Shown: positions 57,394 to 64,000 of the stretch, piece by piece
Layout: each line of letters begins with the position of its first letter
How positions within the stretch are numbered: the stretch's first letter is position 1
Assembly (NCBI GenBank): GCA_030684575.1
Contig: JAUXVD010000022.1
Span: forward strand, 7,501-71,500
Direction of reading: 5' to 3'
Origin: Nitrospirota bacterium
Lineage (GTDB): Bacteria; Nitrospirota; Nitrospiria; Nitrospirales; Nitrospiraceae
DNA length: 64,000 nucleotides
Position numbers and translations under genes: made by a program
Notes under the pieces: model-generated
Told to the model about the DNA's origin: nothing
The model's input: the letters and a program-made list of their open reading frames with translations, nothing else
Databases searched by the model: none

Positions 57394-58536
57394 CTAGTCG
57401 GTAGGGGCTGTTGCTGTCGCCATTGCCGGAAGGCATGCTTTGCATTCCTGGATCACATGCGTAAAGAGTTCGGTCAACTTCGGTTCGAAGTGTGTGCCGG
57501 CATGCGCACGCATCTGTTGGCAGGCGTCATCAATTGAGAGGGGCGTTCGGCCGGGAAGCTCCGCGGTCAGATGGTCGAATGCTTGTGCCAGACATACAAT
57601 ACGGGCCAGTTGAGGAATGCCTTCTTCCTGCAGTCCATAGGGATAACCTGAGCCATCCCAGCGTTCATGGTGATAGGCAATGATCTGCCCCACCTCAGCC
57701 GGCAGCCCTAATGGCAACACGAGTTTCCCGCCCATTTCCGGGTGGAGACGATTGCCGACGGATTCCCCATCCATCGCGATTTCATCTTCGGCGAAGTGAT
57801 AGGTTTCAGGTCCGACCTTGCCGATGTCGTGGAGGAATGCGCCCAATGCCAGAGACTTTTGCTCAGCGGGCGTTAAGTTGATGCGGTTGGCTAAGAGGGT
57901 CGCGTAGAAGCTGACTCGGCTGCAGTGGTTGAGCAGCTGCCGATCTTTGGCCTCGAGCAGGTCTGAGAGCAGAGGGAGGAGCTGGCTTGGCATGGATTCA
58001 CAGCCGGATGCCGGCTCTGGCGTCGGCTTTCCGATCGCCTGGTATCCCACGAATAATTTCTTCCACGCCTGCGCGCCCTCGGCTTCTGTTCCCCAGAGTC
58101 CGGTCGATGTTCTGAGGAAATGTCTGAGGAAGTCGAGCCGTTGTTTCTTCTCGAGAGTTTGGTTGACGAGAGAAAGCAGTTCCGTGACATTGAAGGGCTT
58201 GAGCAGATAGCCTGCCGCGCCTTGGCGAATCCCTTCCATGGCGGATTTCAGGCTCCCGTATCCGGTGACCATGATGACTTCAACGTCGGCATGGTCATGT
58301 TTGATGTCTTGAAGGAGATCTAATCCTTGGCGGTCTGGAAGTTTCTGATCGAGTGTAATGAGGTCTATCGGCTCGGAGTTGAGCACGTCAAGAGCGGCAT
58401 TCGCTGATTCTGCGGCGTGGATTTTGAAGAAAGGTCTGAGAATAGCTGAAAGGGCGTCACGAGGTCCTGCTTCATCATCGATCACGAGCAAGGTCGGCAC
58501 ATTCTTCGCCGACTCAGGATTCACAGGTAAGGTCAT
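57394..58536 (-). CDS. Response regulator with HD-GYP output (c-di-GMP phosphodiesterase), 380 aa
   Basis: Receiver domain (residues 14-130) with phospho-acceptor Asp63 (LITLDQKLPDRQG), acidic pair in VIDDEAG and Lys in LLKPFN. The HD-GYP domain (about 185-360) has LHDIGK (HD at residues 236-237) and HHERWDGSGYP (289-299), the full catalytic and GYP motifs, so it should degrade cyclic di-GMP when phosphorylated. It lies beside an NtrC-type regulator and a kinase, and the PilZ proteins in the window would respond to the same messenger. Confidence 0.93.
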   Translation of the reverse strand: MTLPVNPESAKNVPTLLVIDDEAGPRDALSAILRPFFKIHAAESANAALDVLNSEPIDLITLDQKLPDRQGLDLLQDIKHDHADVEVIMVTGYGSLKSAMEGIRQGAAGYLLKPFNVTELLSLVNQTLEKKQRLDFLRHFLRTSTGLWGTEAEGAQAWKKLFVGYQAIGKPTPEPASGCESMPSQLLPLLSDLLEAKDRQLLNHCSRVSFYATLLANRINLTPAEQKSLALGAFLHDIGKVGPETYHFAEDEIAMDGESVGNRLHPEMGGKLVLPLGLPAEVGQIIAYHHERWDGSGYPYGLQEEGIPQLARIVCLAQAFDHLTAELPGRTPLSIDDACQQMRAHAGTHFEPKLTELFTHVIQECKACLPAMATATAPTD

Positions 58537-58754: not shown

Positions 58755-60182
58755 CTATTCCTGCACTATGGCCTGAGGTTCGGCGTTGACTTCCTGGTCT
58801 GGCCGGCCGATTCCCAACGTGTCCATGCGGTATTTCAGCATCCGGCGGCTGATTCCGAGCAGGTTGGCGGCATGAGTTTGGACATATCCTGTTCGTTTCA
58901 GGGCATCCAAGATAATTTCGCGCTCGAATTCCATGACGGCTTTTTCGAGCGATAGTCGCCCTGCGAGGGTGTCATCGCGCAGTGAGGTGGAGCGAGTATC
59001 GTTCTTTAGGATGGTCGGGAGATGTTCGGGGGTGATGGTGTCAGACCCCTTGGACCAAATGAATGCCTGCTCGATGATGTTCTCCATTTCCCGCACATTG
59101 CCAGGCCAGGGATAGCGGGAGAGAAGGTCGACGGCATCTTTGGAAAATTCTTGAGGCGGACGGTTTTCTTCCTCGATGCGCTTTGCCAGAAAATGTTTGG
59201 CGAGGAGGGGGACATCTTCACCCCGTTCACGGAGCGGAGGCAAATACAGCGCAATGACGTTGATACGGTAGTAGAGGTCTTCGCGGAATTGTCCTTTGCG
59301 AACGAGTTCTTCAAGATTCTTGTTTGTCGCGGTGACGATGCGCACATCCACCTTGATGGATTGCACCCCGCCGACTCTGGTGAATTCTCGTTCTTGCAAG
59401 ACGCGCAGCAGCTTGGCTTGTGTCATGGCGCTGAGGTCGCCGATCTCGTCGAGGAAGAGCGTGCCGGTATTCGCGAGTTCAAATTGTCCGACTCGGCGGG
59501 CTGTGGCATCCGTGAACGAGCCTTTCTCATGGCCGAAGAGCTCACTCTCGATGAGCGTTTCGGGAAGGGCGGCACAATTGAGCGCGATGAAGGGCCGTTC
59601 GCGCCTGCCGCTATTGTAATGGAGCGCCTTCGCGACCAGCTCCTTTCCCGTTCCGCTCTCTCCGGAAATAAACACGGTGGTGCGGCTGTCGGCGACTTGT
59701 TCGATTTTGGTGTAGATGTCTTGCATCGACGGGCTCTTGCCGATCAGATTGTGAAAGGCATACCGTCGAACGACTTGCGCGCGGAGCTGTTTCACCTCCC
59801 GCTGGAGTTCGTGATCCTTGAGTGCGCGATCGACAATGATGCGGAGCTCTTCTACGTCGAAGGGTTTCGAGAGGTAGTCAGCGGCGCCGAACTTCATGGC
59901 GTCGACGGCAGTTTTTACCGACTTGGTGCCAGTCAGCATGATGACCGGCGCCGGCCGGTCTTCGGCGCGTATGGTTTGGAGTAACGCCAGCCCGTCGGTG
60001 CCAGGCAGGATGACGTCGAGGAGGACCAGATGGGGCGCTTCCTTGCGGAAGAGCTCGAGTCCCTCTTGGGCGTCTGCGGCTTGGATCGTTTCGTAGGCTG
60101 GCTCGAGTACCGCTTTCAATGAGGCCCGAACCCGGGCCTCATCATCGATCAACAGGATTCGCTTTTTCATGCTGGTGTCCAT
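58755..60182 (-). CDS. Sigma-54-dependent NtrC-family response regulator, 475 aa
   Basis: Receiver domain with Asp56 (LVLLDVILPGTDGL), acidic pair in LLIDDEARV and Lys in YLSKPF. The AAA+ core has Walker A GESGTGKE, the sigma-54-contact loop reads FGHEKGSFTDATARR (GSFTDA, a variant of GAFTGA), Walker B is in GTLFLDEIGDLS, and RYPWPGNVREMENI is the sensor II region. A Fis-type helix-turn-helix ends it (AANLLGISRRMLKYRMDTLG). It activates sigma-54 promoters when phosphorylated, probably by the histidine kinase whose gene lies 13 bases upstream. Confidence 0.93.
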   Translation of the reverse strand: MDTSMKKRILLIDDEARVRASLKAVLEPAYETIQAADAQEGLELFRKEAPHLVLLDVILPGTDGLALLQTIRAEDRPAPVIMLTGTKSVKTAVDAMKFGAADYLSKPFDVEELRIIVDRALKDHELQREVKQLRAQVVRRYAFHNLIGKSPSMQDIYTKIEQVADSRTTVFISGESGTGKELVAKALHYNSGRRERPFIALNCAALPETLIESELFGHEKGSFTDATARRVGQFELANTGTLFLDEIGDLSAMTQAKLLRVLQEREFTRVGGVQSIKVDVRIVTATNKNLEELVRKGQFREDLYYRINVIALYLPPLRERGEDVPLLAKHFLAKRIEEENRPPQEFSKDAVDLLSRYPWPGNVREMENIIEQAFIWSKGSDTITPEHLPTILKNDTRSTSLRDDTLAGRLSLEKAVMEFEREIILDALKRTGYVQTHAANLLGISRRMLKYRMDTLGIGRPDQEVNAEPQAIVQE

Positions 60183-60195
60183 TGGGTGTTGGCGA

Positions 60196-61473
60196 TTATG
60201 CGGGCAAGGCCGGTAGGCTCACGAAAAACGTCGTACCGATACCGACTGCACTCTTTACCCGGATCTCGCCGTGATGTTCTTGAATAATTTGATGGACAAT
60301 CGTCAAGCCGAGTCCCGTTCCTTCGTGTTCTCCGCTTTCGTGTTTGGTCGTGAAAAATGGGTCAAAAATATGTTCGAGATTGATCTCTTGGATTCCCTCA
60401 CCGGTATCCTCGATCTCGATGTGGGCCCAGACGTTCCCTCCCGGCTTCACCACTGTTCTGGTTTGAACACGTAACCGCCCACCCGCCCCTGCCATCGAGT
60501 CTATGGCATTGAGGAGGAGATTGAGCAGGACCTGCTTGATCTGTTGTCGATCCAGCATGACACGAGGCAGGTCAGACGCCAACTCTTTTTCAATCTTGAT
60601 CCCACGGCTGTCCGCCTTCACGTCGATGAAATAGAGACAGGAGGCGACAAGATCGTTGAAGTCTTCGTCCGTCAGTTTGGGTTCCATGTACCGGGCGTAG
60701 TCGAGAATTTCCTGGATCAATCGCTCGATTCGATACACATCGTCGAGCACGACTTTGCTGAATTCCTGAATAAATTGCGGGTCATCTTTTCGTTCAGGGG
60801 CCAACTGGATAAAGGTTTTAATCGAGGTGAGGGGGTTTCTGATTTCATGAGCGAAGCCGCCGGCGATCGTCTCAAGGGATTTCAGCCGATCCGTCCGCTT
60901 CATCAGTGTGTGTGAGCGATGCAGGTCTTCGTACAGCACAATGGTGTCGAGTGCATTAGTCGCAGTTTGTGCCAGTGCGGCGAGCAGGGTCTTATTCAGC
61001 GGCTGTCCTGTCGTGAGAGGGACTGCTGCGCCGAGGACGCTGAAGGCAATGAGACGGCCTTTGTTGAGATGCGGCACGATGCGGGAGGCCTGCATCGATT
61101 CCAGCGCCCTGCATGCGTCGGCTCCGAAGTCGGGGTCTTGGAGGTCGATCGCCGAGTCGACCTGTGCCATGATCCGGTTGGTGGCGAGCAGGTGGTGAGG
61201 CAAGGGATGGCTCACGGCCATCGTTGGAGGAATACAGGCGAGGGTATCCGACCCAACCATGTTGGCGCAGCGATAACATTCGTGTTCGCGGTCCAGGACG
61301 AATAACACACCATGGGTCGTCATCCCTACTCGACAGAGTTCTTGGATAATGCGATTGCCGATGGTGGGCAGGTCTGTCATCGTGCCCAGGTCTGACGCAA
61401 ACTGTGTGACGATAGTTAAGAGCTCACTGGAAGACAATGCTGAAAAGTCGGTATTCGATGGGGGTGGCGTCAT
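60196..61473 (-). CDS. Sensor histidine kinase with N-terminal GAF domain, 425 aa
   Basis: GAF domain (about residues 15-185), with no membrane helix, so it senses a cytoplasmic signal. H-box is GGFAHEIRNPLTSIKTFI (His209), N-box in LLNLLLNAIDSMAG, G1 in DTGEGIQ, F-box in HIFDPFFTTK, and G2 in GTGLGLTIVHQIIQEHHG. It is 13 bases upstream of the NtrC-type regulator and most likely its partner. The layout resembles the NtrB/AtoS group of kinases for sigma-54 regulators. Confidence 0.93.
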   Translation of the reverse strand: MTPPPSNTDFSALSSSELLTIVTQFASDLGTMTDLPTIGNRIIQELCRVGMTTHGVLFVLDREHECYRCANMVGSDTLACIPPTMAVSHPLPHHLLATNRIMAQVDSAIDLQDPDFGADACRALESMQASRIVPHLNKGRLIAFSVLGAAVPLTTGQPLNKTLLAALAQTATNALDTIVLYEDLHRSHTLMKRTDRLKSLETIAGGFAHEIRNPLTSIKTFIQLAPERKDDPQFIQEFSKVVLDDVYRIERLIQEILDYARYMEPKLTDEDFNDLVASCLYFIDVKADSRGIKIEKELASDLPRVMLDRQQIKQVLLNLLLNAIDSMAGAGGRLRVQTRTVVKPGGNVWAHIEIEDTGEGIQEINLEHIFDPFFTTKHESGEHEGTGLGLTIVHQIIQEHHGEIRVKSAVGIGTTFFVSLPALPA

Positions 61474-61588: not shown

Positions 61589-64000
61589 TCAGCTAGCGGA
61601 TTTACCTTTTTCGATGACGGCGAAGAGGCCCTGCCCATCGAAGGCAGGAAGGATGCGGGGCGTGAGGATACCGGCTTGGTGGAGAAATGAGGTGAGCGAT
61701 GAGCGGTCGAAGGTGTGCAGCAATCCATGCCGGATGGCCTCGCGGAGTCGCCCAAGGTAATGCAGCAGGATCTGGGCTTGCGGACTAAATTCATCCTGAT
61801 TCGCGCTGTGCAGGTGTCGGCGATAGAGCGCCGAGAGGTCGGTCTCAGGCTGGAAGACCGTGAGGACGAGGCGTCCCTTGGGGTGAAGCACGCGGTACAG
61901 CTCACGAATGGTGACCAGCGGAGAGGGAACGAACAACAGTGACAGGTTGCAGACGATGCGATGGAGCGAGTCATTTTTGAAGGGTAGGCCCTGGCTCCAA
62001 TCCGTATGCACCCATTCAGCCGTCAGAGGCGGGTGGATGGTGAGTGTGCCTGCAAAGTCACTGTCGAGTTCCCGATGCAACGCACGAAGACTCTGTCGTG
62101 CCAGTGTCAGCGATTCGTGAGAATGCCCCAAGCCGATGACATGGACGGGACGTTCAGGACTCCATCCGCGCTGGCGCGAGCGGTAGGCTTGATTCACCAT
62201 TGTGGCTCGGACCAAATCGCCATGGCCGACCCCCACGTCCATGAGTATGGAGCCCGGTTCGAGCGGGCTGAGCAGCCGGTAGAGATCGTCTAAGAGTTTC
62301 CAGTATTCGTGCAGATTCCCGAGCTGGGTAAGCTGCTGCAGGTGCGCGACCCTCAGGGCTTCGCGCGTTATCTGTGAGAGGTTATGTCGAAGGCGGGTGC
62401 GCTCCAATTCGATGCGCTGTTGACGGGCCAGCATATCGCGGGCCTGTATGCTGAATTCAGCCGGAGCGGCTGGCAGTGAGATGGCGATTGCGATCTGCTC
62501 CAGGATCTGTCGGAAGGCCAGCGGGTGGTGCTCATTGAATGGGAGCTCCTGGCCGGCCAGCGGAGTGGGAACCGTTGCGAGGCGGGTATGGGCTCCCAAC
62601 GCCGTGAGGAATGCCTGCGGGAGATCCGCCGGAGGCAGCGGACCGAAGGGTGGGCCTGGAATTGTGAGAATGGCCGATGGTGAACGAAGGAGGCGCAGAT
62701 CCGCAAGTGTGGAGGCAAGGTCTGTAAAGTGGCCTACCACGATATCGCCGACAAAACGATCGATGTTGACGTTGAGCCCAAGCAGATTGGCGATGCCACG
62801 CCGGAGTCCGTACCGGTGGTCGGCCACGAGGTCATGACCATGGACCGTCATCAGCATGGCCTGAATATCGACGACCGGATTGATCAGGAGCAGGAGATCG
62901 AGGGGACGGGATTGTATCGCCGTCTTCAGTGCGACCCGTGCGGATAGATCGCTGGCCATCACGATCAGAGGCGCGGTGGGCCAGGTATGTTGCACAAATT
63001 CCACGACCTTCAGGAGGTCGGCTTGCATGCTCCGTAACGTCGTCTGCTGGAGCTCTCCGTCGCTGAGTCCGACATGGTTGGTGTGGTCGTACCGTAAGAC
63101 ACGGAGCCGGTGGTGTGCGAGGTAGTAGGACAACGTGCTGGCATCCAACGCGGTCTGGCCGTAGCCGGGAGCGATGATGACGACCGGTGTGTTCGGTGCG
63201 AGCGACGGGCGTAGATGGTCGTCGGTGATCATGATCGCTTGGCCGCGTGGATTCCGGCATTCTCGCGGAATACTGATGATCGACGGTTGTTGCGAGGGGG
63301 CCTCCGGCCCGCCAGGAGACGATAGATGTTGCCGGACGACACGGTTGACTTCCCGCTCTGCATAGGGAGTGAGCCCGTGAAAACGAAGCCCGATCAGAAG
63401 GGTGGGGTTGGCGTCCTGGGTCGGAAACTCTTTTGGCGCAGTGGGATCGTGAGCGGCCCAGATGATTTTTGCGGGCAGTGCGGAATCCGGAGCTCCCGGT
63501 TCATGGGAGCCAGGGTGATGCGGGGTCTGTACCGAGGCGAAGTGCAGGGTGGCGAGGCCCTGTAAGAGCTCAGGTGCCGCATTGAGATGGAGACAGACCC
63601 CGTCGCGGCTGAGATTTGTCGTGAGCGCTCCTAGGCGGTGCGTCTTGCCGGCCTGATCTGTGACATCCAGCCTGACAGGGAGCTGCAAGGCGACCCGGAC
63701 GGCTTCACGGGGGTTGTAGTCTCCCTGTTCGGTTGCGATCGGCTGATTTGCGAGATCTGGCGTGGCCGATGGTTCTGCCGCAAGCAGCACTTCAAGGGAG
63801 AAGGACAACGCCTGCTCCTGAGCCGCTTGGATCAGTGAGCCCAAGACAGCAGCCTCTTCTCGTTTGAGTGCATCGAATTCGATGACAAGATGGGAGACCG
63901 GGGTTCCAGAAGAGAGCGTGATGGGCCGCTCTTCCGCCATCCCTTGCAGTTCGAGGATTCCCACCGAAGTTTTCAGTACGACATAGGCATCTTGTGGCGC
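61589..64000 (-). CDS. Multidomain protein: PilZ, LuxD-like alpha/beta-hydrolase and SAM methyltransferase (5' end beyond window)
   Basis: The frame stays open to the window edge; a GTG at 63964 is a possible start but coding-like residues precede it. Numbered from that GTG (791 aa): PilZ at about 85-215, with R86-x3-R90 (PREAVR) and NLSRDG at 117-122; then a domain at about 245-500 that resembles the bacterial luciferase acyl-transferase LuxD (VVIIAPGYGQ, RYDHTNHVGLSDGE, ASDLSARVA); then a methyltransferase at about 555-791 (ILMDVGVGHGDLV, VHVIGLGHSH, IVCNLSLLFVP). At the nucleophile elbow, LuxD has Ser, but here Asp339 occupies the site. The function is unknown; possible cyclic di-GMP control of an acyl- or methyl-modifying step. 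Confidence 0.8.
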   Translation of the reverse strand, partial: APQDAYVVLKTSVGILELQGMAEERPITLSSGTPVSHLVIEFDALKREEAAVLGSLIQAAQEQALSFSLEVLLAAEPSATPDLANQPIATEQGDYNPREAVRVALQLPVRLDVTDQAGKTHRLGALTTNLSRDGVCLHLNAAPELLQGLATLHFASVQTPHHPGSHEPGAPDSALPAKIIWAAHDPTAPKEFPTQDANPTLLIGLRFHGLTPYAEREVNRVVRQHLSSPGGPEAPSQQPSIISIPRECRNPRGQAIMITDDHLRPSLAPNTPVVIIAPGYGQTALDASTLSYYLAHHRLRVLRYDHTNHVGLSDGELQQTTLRSMQADLLKVVEFVQHTWPTAPLIVMASDLSARVALKTAIQSRPLDLLLLINPVVDIQAMLMTVHGHDLVADHRYGLRRGIANLLGLNVNIDRFVGDIVVGHFTDLASTLADLRLLRSPSAILTIPGPPFGPLPPADLPQAFLTALGAHTRLATVPTPLAGQELPFNEHHPLAFRQILEQIAIAISLPAAPAEFSIQARDMLARQQRIELERTRLRHNLSQITREALRVAHLQQLTQLGNLHEYWKLLDDLYRLLSPLEPGSILMDVGVGHGDLVRATMVNQAYRSRQRGWSPERPVHVIGLGHSHESLTLARQSLRALHRELDSDFAGTLTIHPPLTAEWVHTDWSQGLPFKNDSLHRIVCNLSLLFVPSPLVTIRELYRVLHPKGRLVLTVFQPETDLSALYRRHLHSANQDEFSPQAQILLHYLGRLREAIRHGLLHTFDRSSLTSFLHQAGILTPRILPAFDGQGLFAVIEKGKSAS

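Follow-up and report, generated by a model that had tools for sequence, protein, structure and literature searches.

The window analyzed here is a 64,000-nucleotide stretch (G000:C22:7501-71500) of a 3.79 Mb genome, on a contig that runs on past the window. Its far end contains most of a multidomain gene, with three two-component genes downstream on the same strand. The features of this region are as follows.

61589 to 64000, minus strand: C-terminal ~803 codons of the REC-PAS-degenerate histidine kinase-PilZ-PilZ-LuxD-methyltransferase (MT) gene, an open frame running off the window
63737 to 64000, minus strand: end of the first PilZ domain (Pfam), with its RRHSAR and NLSLGG motifs just beyond the window edge
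63332 to 63721, minus strand: second PilZ domain (Pfam), with NPREAVR at 63695-63715 and TNLSRDG at 63599-63619
62477 to 63289, minus strand: LuxD-like alpha/beta-hydrolase domain (PF02273 match)
62948 to 62950, minus strand: Asp943, aligned with Ser114, the nucleophile of LuxD
62642 to 62665, minus strand: TIPGPPFG, the segment expected to hold LuxD Asp211, with no Asp
62543 to 62563, minus strand: PLAGQEL, the segment expected to hold LuxD His241, with no His
61589 to 62359, minus strand: class I methyltransferase-like domain (Methyltransf_11)
62216 to 62242, minus strand: MT motif I, MDVGVGHGD
62114 to 62140, minus strand: MT segment VIGLGHSHE, with the acidic residue missing
60196 to 61473, minus strand: soluble histidine kinase of 425 aa, the next gene downstream (Pfam HisKA and HATPase_c; no hydrophobic segment)
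58755 to 60182, minus strand: NtrC-type sigma-54 response regulator
57394 to 58536, minus strand: REC-HD-GYP response regulator, a predicted c-di-GMP phosphodiesterase (PF13487 HD_5 plus REC)

The LuxD-MT gene continues beyond the window for about 1.8 kb. Read on the contig, the full frame (L002:3090-7277) comprises 1395 codons, and its relatives suggest that translation probably starts at the ATG in codon 2. The earlier note, written from the window alone, had described PilZ, LuxD-like and methyltransferase domains joined in one protein and had anticipated a further N-terminal part. Both observations hold. On a single open frame, Pfam matches Acyl_transf_2/LuxD (PF02273) at 53.2 bits against a cut-off of 20.3, PilZ at 44.1 bits over two stretches, and Methyltransf_11 at 29.7 bits, above its cut-off of 21.2. 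The sequence past the window adds a REC domain (just under the Pfam cut-off), a matched PAS domain, a degenerate histidine kinase region, and another PilZ domain. A merger of separate genes through assembly or sequencing error, an assembly error being one of the findings that the note had named as undoing its reading, is refuted: the gene is present in 115 of the 175 genomes of the family, mostly as a single open frame of ~1400 codons, and the frame recurs in more than 100 genomes of many genera.

PilZ domains usually partner with motility, cellulose, kinase, or transcription domains. The window protein differs in its fusion to LuxD-like and methyltransferase domains; literature searches for PilZ with LuxD, PilZ with methyltransferase, and PilZ with a lipid enzyme and a kinase, which covered few subscription papers, returned no paper describing such a protein. 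When 84,980 species genomes were scanned, all named relatives were labelled Nitrospirota, Nitrospirae, or Nitrospira, except for one metagenome-assembled genome labelled Nitrospinota, and the host is accordingly most likely one of the Nitrospiraceae.

The LuxD resemblance pointed out in the note is borne out by both sequence and structure. The best match in the PDB by phmmer is 1THT, the myristoyl-ACP thioesterase of V. harveyi (E 7e-9). An AlphaFold model of the LuxD and MT part is confident (pLDDT 86, pTM 0.88), and its top Foldseek match is again 1THT (E 5e-15, TM 0.75 by target), with methyltransferase structures such as Coq5 also among the matches. The shared features include the RYD...HVGLSxG and LSARVA blocks, represented here by RYDHTNHVGLSDG at 63056-63094 and ASDLSAR around 62948. 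The NCBIfam LuxD equivalog scores only 51 bits for the window protein, far short of its cut-off of 420. In addition, there is no luxCDABE operon at the locus.

The catalytic residues are a different matter. At the positions of Ser114, Asp211, and His241, the window protein has Asp, Pro, and Gly. This loss extends to the long forms in general: of 63 long frames, 57 carry Asp where the nucleophile should be, with Ser in three and Gly in three, and the remaining two sites of the triad drift freely. When a profile of the long forms is aligned to 1THT, Asp falls on S114 and the His region is left outside the alignment. A profile of the triad-intact relatives described below, by comparison, matches 1THT with an E value of 4.5e-33, and S114, D211, and H241 coincide exactly with its Ser, Asp, and His. 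The LuxD domain of the window protein hence appears catalytically dead. The profile alignment to 1THT led us to reject active acyl release by this protein, and the c-di-GMP-controlled acyl release put forward in the note is not supported because the triad residues are lost. One might suppose instead that the domain is still an enzyme which uses Asp943 as its nucleophile in the manner of haloalkane dehalogenases and epoxide hydrolases. Asp nucleophiles are known within the alpha/beta-hydrolase superfamily, and Asp is fixed at this position in nearly all long forms. However, such enzymes need a catalytic His and none is conserved in the long forms, which makes this explanation very unlikely.

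The methyltransferase domain shows a parallel loss. It retains the GxGxG motif, but the acidic SAM-binding residue after strand beta2 is replaced by Gly, and the lipid or acyl methylation also suggested for this protein finds no support. Across the window genus and g15, this acidic residue is lost, the position being occupied by Gly, Glu, or Arg, and some members have lost the motif I glycines as well. In the long forms of g14, both MT motifs are mostly retained.

It could be proposed that the LuxD and MT domains are decaying leftovers, given that catalytic residues are gone from both, and that the role of the protein lies entirely in its PilZ and other N-terminal domains. Within the window genus, mean dN/dS is lowest in precisely these two domains (LuxD 0.14, MT 0.17), compared with 0.21 for PAS, 0.28 and 0.22 for the first and second PilZ domains, and 0.29 for the dead kinase region. 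These values were obtained by the Nei-Gojobori method and are approximate, since mean dS is about 0.8-1.0. Simple decay was rejected on this basis, and the confidently folded model likewise makes it a highly unlikely account. We read the LuxD and MT domains of the window protein as a conserved pseudoenzyme pair, probably kept for binding and not for catalysis; the strong constraint on both domains and the retention of both PilZ motifs argue for selection of this kind.

Both PilZ domains are well preserved. As in known c-di-GMP receptors, the RxxxR and [D/N]xSxxG signatures are present in each, and the two ligand motifs reported in the note, PREAVR and NLSRDG, are intact. Among the 63 long frames, the RxxxR arginines are essentially invariant in both domains, and the final Gly of the second motif is invariant in both. 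Foldseek analysis of an N-terminal structure model indicates a histidine-kinase-like fold at residues ~262-520, between the PAS domain and the first PilZ domain, with PAS/LOV-histidine kinases as the best matches (~400 columns aligned). The local confidence of this model is fair (pLDDT 75), and with a pTM of 0.31 its domain arrangement is not reliable. The phosphoacceptor His of the degenerate kinase is Gln in the window protein; in the long forms it is mostly Gln, Arg, or Lys, with His in five of 63.

The genes around the window protein form a conserved unit. The order LuxD-MT gene, histidine kinase, NtrC-type regulator, and HD-GYP protein is maintained across the family, followed by recN on the opposite strand. 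The REC-HD-GYP protein also matches a model for NosR-type response regulator phosphodiesterases, below the cut-off of that model. Upstream of the LuxD gene, a PP2C-like protein and two conserved, uncharacterized proteins are encoded (named by eye); in most members of the family, the latter two (L002:7621-9677) immediately precede the long LuxD gene.

Other Nitrospirota carry relatives of the window protein that keep the Ser-Asp-His triad and the MT motifs. These proteins are shorter, most being about 670-1280 codons, and are spread across the phylum, including Candidatus Nitrospira defluvii (L105:6807-9692); Ser, Asp, and His are present in L048, L041, and L131 (7362-9752) among others. Most also have PilZ domains, with L172 consisting of LuxD-MT alone. 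In g14, a genus related to that of the window, single genomes carry both triad-intact and triad-lost versions. Two frames are extended further: one (L052:4808-9805, plus strand) appears fused to its own 7TM kinase and another (L036:4719-9860, minus strand) runs on into an NtrC-like regulator, each being either a true fusion or a sequencing error. In L173 and L174, the PilZ-hydrolase-MT protein is more remotely related but still has Ser, Asp, and His, and it lies beside a hybrid kinase.

The state of the triad goes together with the type of neighboring kinase. In a de-duplicated set, a kinase is visible at 50 triad-intact loci, and at every one of them it is a membrane histidine kinase encoded directly downstream, of the HisKA_7TM type except at L173 and L174, where it is another membrane sensor. 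Among triad-lost loci, the kinase was classed at 41 and is soluble at 40; the lone exception, L118, has Asn as its nucleophile and a 7TM kinase. These counts include one genome entered twice (L126/L175), leave out L042, and score L047 by its true neighboring kinase. The tree shows just two changes in each trait and a single independent pair, and the association therefore has no statistical force as coevolution. It amounts to one or two past events that are observed across many genomes.

In genome-wide checks, a HisKA_7TM kinase adjoins the triad-intact LuxD-MT gene in G038, G032, G001, and G346, and in the first three it is the only such kinase found in the genome. In three genomes with the pseudo-form only (the window genome, G092, and G046), no HisKA_7TM kinase was found. 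Three further pseudo-form genomes (G134, G148, G054) do carry a 7TM kinase elsewhere, paired with an acyl-ACP reductase. Some of the kinases are large, and those of ~1000 aa (L105:9699-12734 and similar) contain two tandem HisKA_7TM domains each.

The triad-intact arrangement can be compared with a known signaling system. In the phcBSRQ operon of Ralstonia, an acyl-acting methyltransferase, a sensor kinase, and receiver proteins are encoded together, and the product, a fatty-acid methyl ester, is sensed by the kinase of the same operon (PMC8578825). Triad-intact relatives share the placement of a putatively acyl-acting methyltransferase gene beside a membrane sensor kinase. The analogy is one of working principle, is drawn from gene arrangement, and applies to these relatives only: the window locus has a soluble kinase and its enzyme looks dead. 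LuxD and PilZ domains are also absent from the description of phcBSRQ. The LuxD-MT proteins of triad-intact relatives probably make or modify a fatty-acyl-derived ligand read by the adjoining membrane kinase. The c-di-GMP-controlled acyl release first proposed for the window protein would fit these relatives much better.

The pairing of enzyme and kinase extends beyond LuxD. We surveyed about 40 HisKA_7TM kinases in all, including other kinases of the family picked irrespective of their neighbor, those of G314, and 20 sampled from outside the family. Within the family, most other HisKA_7TM kinases follow a lipid enzyme, often fused to PilZ. For example, a PilZ-KASIII (FabH-like) gene separates the LuxD gene from the kinase in L118 (4243-5838), and others lie before the kinase in L051 (3436-5019), where the LuxD domain is missing, before a 7TM kinase in L184 (7121-8701), and directly before hybrid 7TM kinases in L164 (7622-9175) and L165 (154-1749). 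No PF02273 match was found in the genomes of L164 and L165. A KASIII gene also precedes the L188 kinase, its frame being cut at the contig end so that the PilZ part is not seen whole. By eye, the PilZ-KASIII fusions seem to conserve the Cys, His, and Asn of KASIII.

Other enzymes occupy the same position. PilZ-HMG-CoA reductases lie directly before 7TM kinases in L180 (7825-9777, minus strand; 370 bits) and L198 (3684-5504, plus strand; 367 bits). UndA/TenA-like oxidases precede them in L187 (3982-5634, minus strand), which is fused to PilZ and matches UndA 6p5q (E 8e-32), and in L182 (4920-6278, plus strand), which has no Pfam PilZ match; relatives of UndA convert fatty acids to alkenes. Acyl-ACP-reductase-like proteins are found directly before 7TM kinases in L183, L190-L195, and L199, of which L191 matches 6jzu (E 5e-18). 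Several have a PilZ-like N-terminus, with a sub-threshold PilZ match in L192 only. L192 and L193 belong to the genus of the window itself. A YbgC-like thioesterase precedes the kinase in L197, and the neighbors of HisKA_7TM kinases also include a phytoene-desaturase-like protein and a FabF-like condensing enzyme. In L181, L185, L186, and L189, no lipid enzyme was found among the same-strand upstream genes. One genome, G314, has five HisKA_7TM kinases (L165, L197, L198, L199, L219), four of which have different upstream enzymes: KASIII, a YbgC-like thioesterase, HMG-CoA reductase, and acyl-ACP reductase.

The pattern is strong among the kinases of Nitrospiraceae but less marked among the 20 from other families. 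Outside the family, L208, L210, L211, L212, and L214 have a lipid-type or methyltransferase gene immediately upstream in the same orientation; such a gene is nearby in L204 and divergent in L215. The remainder have no such gene, and about half of the sample has no enzyme upstream. In L210 (4374-5465, plus strand) and L211 (4430-5521, minus strand), class I methyltransferases overlap the start of the 7TM kinase gene. We do not claim these as PhcB, as none of their family matches identified them as such.

The chief rival to signaling is membrane-lipid homeostasis, whereby the kinase-adjacent enzymes remodel membrane lipids, the kinase senses the state of the membrane without any diffusible signal, and the window protein is an adaptor left from such a module that responds to both c-di-GMP and the membrane. 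HMG-CoA reductase, the phytoene-desaturase-like protein, the FabH- and FabF-like enzymes, and acyl-ACP reductase would fit lipid supply as well. The two-component proteins are also distantly related to PrsK/PrsR of the exosortase A system (regulator TIGR02915 436 bits, kinases TIGR02916 102-150 bits, all below cut-off), and an exopolysaccharide or membrane-sensing role of the kinases is possible on account of this kinship. By eye, exosortase-like genes lie near two kinases of other classes (L217/L218); none was found in the family neighborhoods examined. However, for a LuxD-type thioesterase joined to a methyltransferase, and for an UndA-like oxidase, the products of known relatives are free or volatile and not membrane lipids. 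Furthermore, the provision of one enzyme per kinase resembles phcB-phcS (PMC8578825). We consider the homeostasis explanation a serious one but on the unlikely side.

Taken as a whole, the best explanation, to which we give about an even chance, is that the window protein is a sensor derived from a group of c-di-GMP-gated lipid enzymes and receptor kinases. It would be a cytoplasmic regulator whose ancestor was a c-di-GMP-regulated acyl-thioesterase/methyltransferase. In the window lineage, the triad and the key SAM-binding residue have been lost, with a dead kinase region present and the neighboring kinase soluble; the two fused folds and the two PilZ domains have stayed under strong selection. 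We infer that the pockets of the pseudo-LuxD and pseudo-methyltransferase bind a ligand, which may be an acyl compound, a methyl ester, or SAM, and that the PilZ domains bind c-di-GMP. As a sensor subunit, the protein would then tune the downstream soluble kinase, the NtrC-type regulator, and the HD-GYP phosphodiesterase, though the soluble kinase may respond to a quite different input. Plant receptors of the GID1 type offer an analogy in working principle only, being alpha/beta-hydrolase folds that lost catalysis and turned into ligand receptors; they are of a family unrelated to the window protein.

More tentatively, and with somewhat less confidence, we propose that Nitrospirota possess an undescribed class of signaling cassettes. 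Each would combine PilZ with one of several interchangeable lipid enzymes, putatively LuxD-methyltransferase, FabH-type KASIII, acyl-ACP reductase, UndA-like oxidase, or HMG-CoA reductase, beside a seven-helix kinase that reads its product; in the window protein, the enzyme would have turned receptor. If this is right, the biofilm messenger c-di-GMP would be tied to the making and sensing of lipid-derived signals in nitrite-oxidizing and related bacteria. The cassettes would provide a set of enzyme-kinase pairs open to experiment, and bacteria would offer, in the window protein, an example of a hydrolase that became a receptor.
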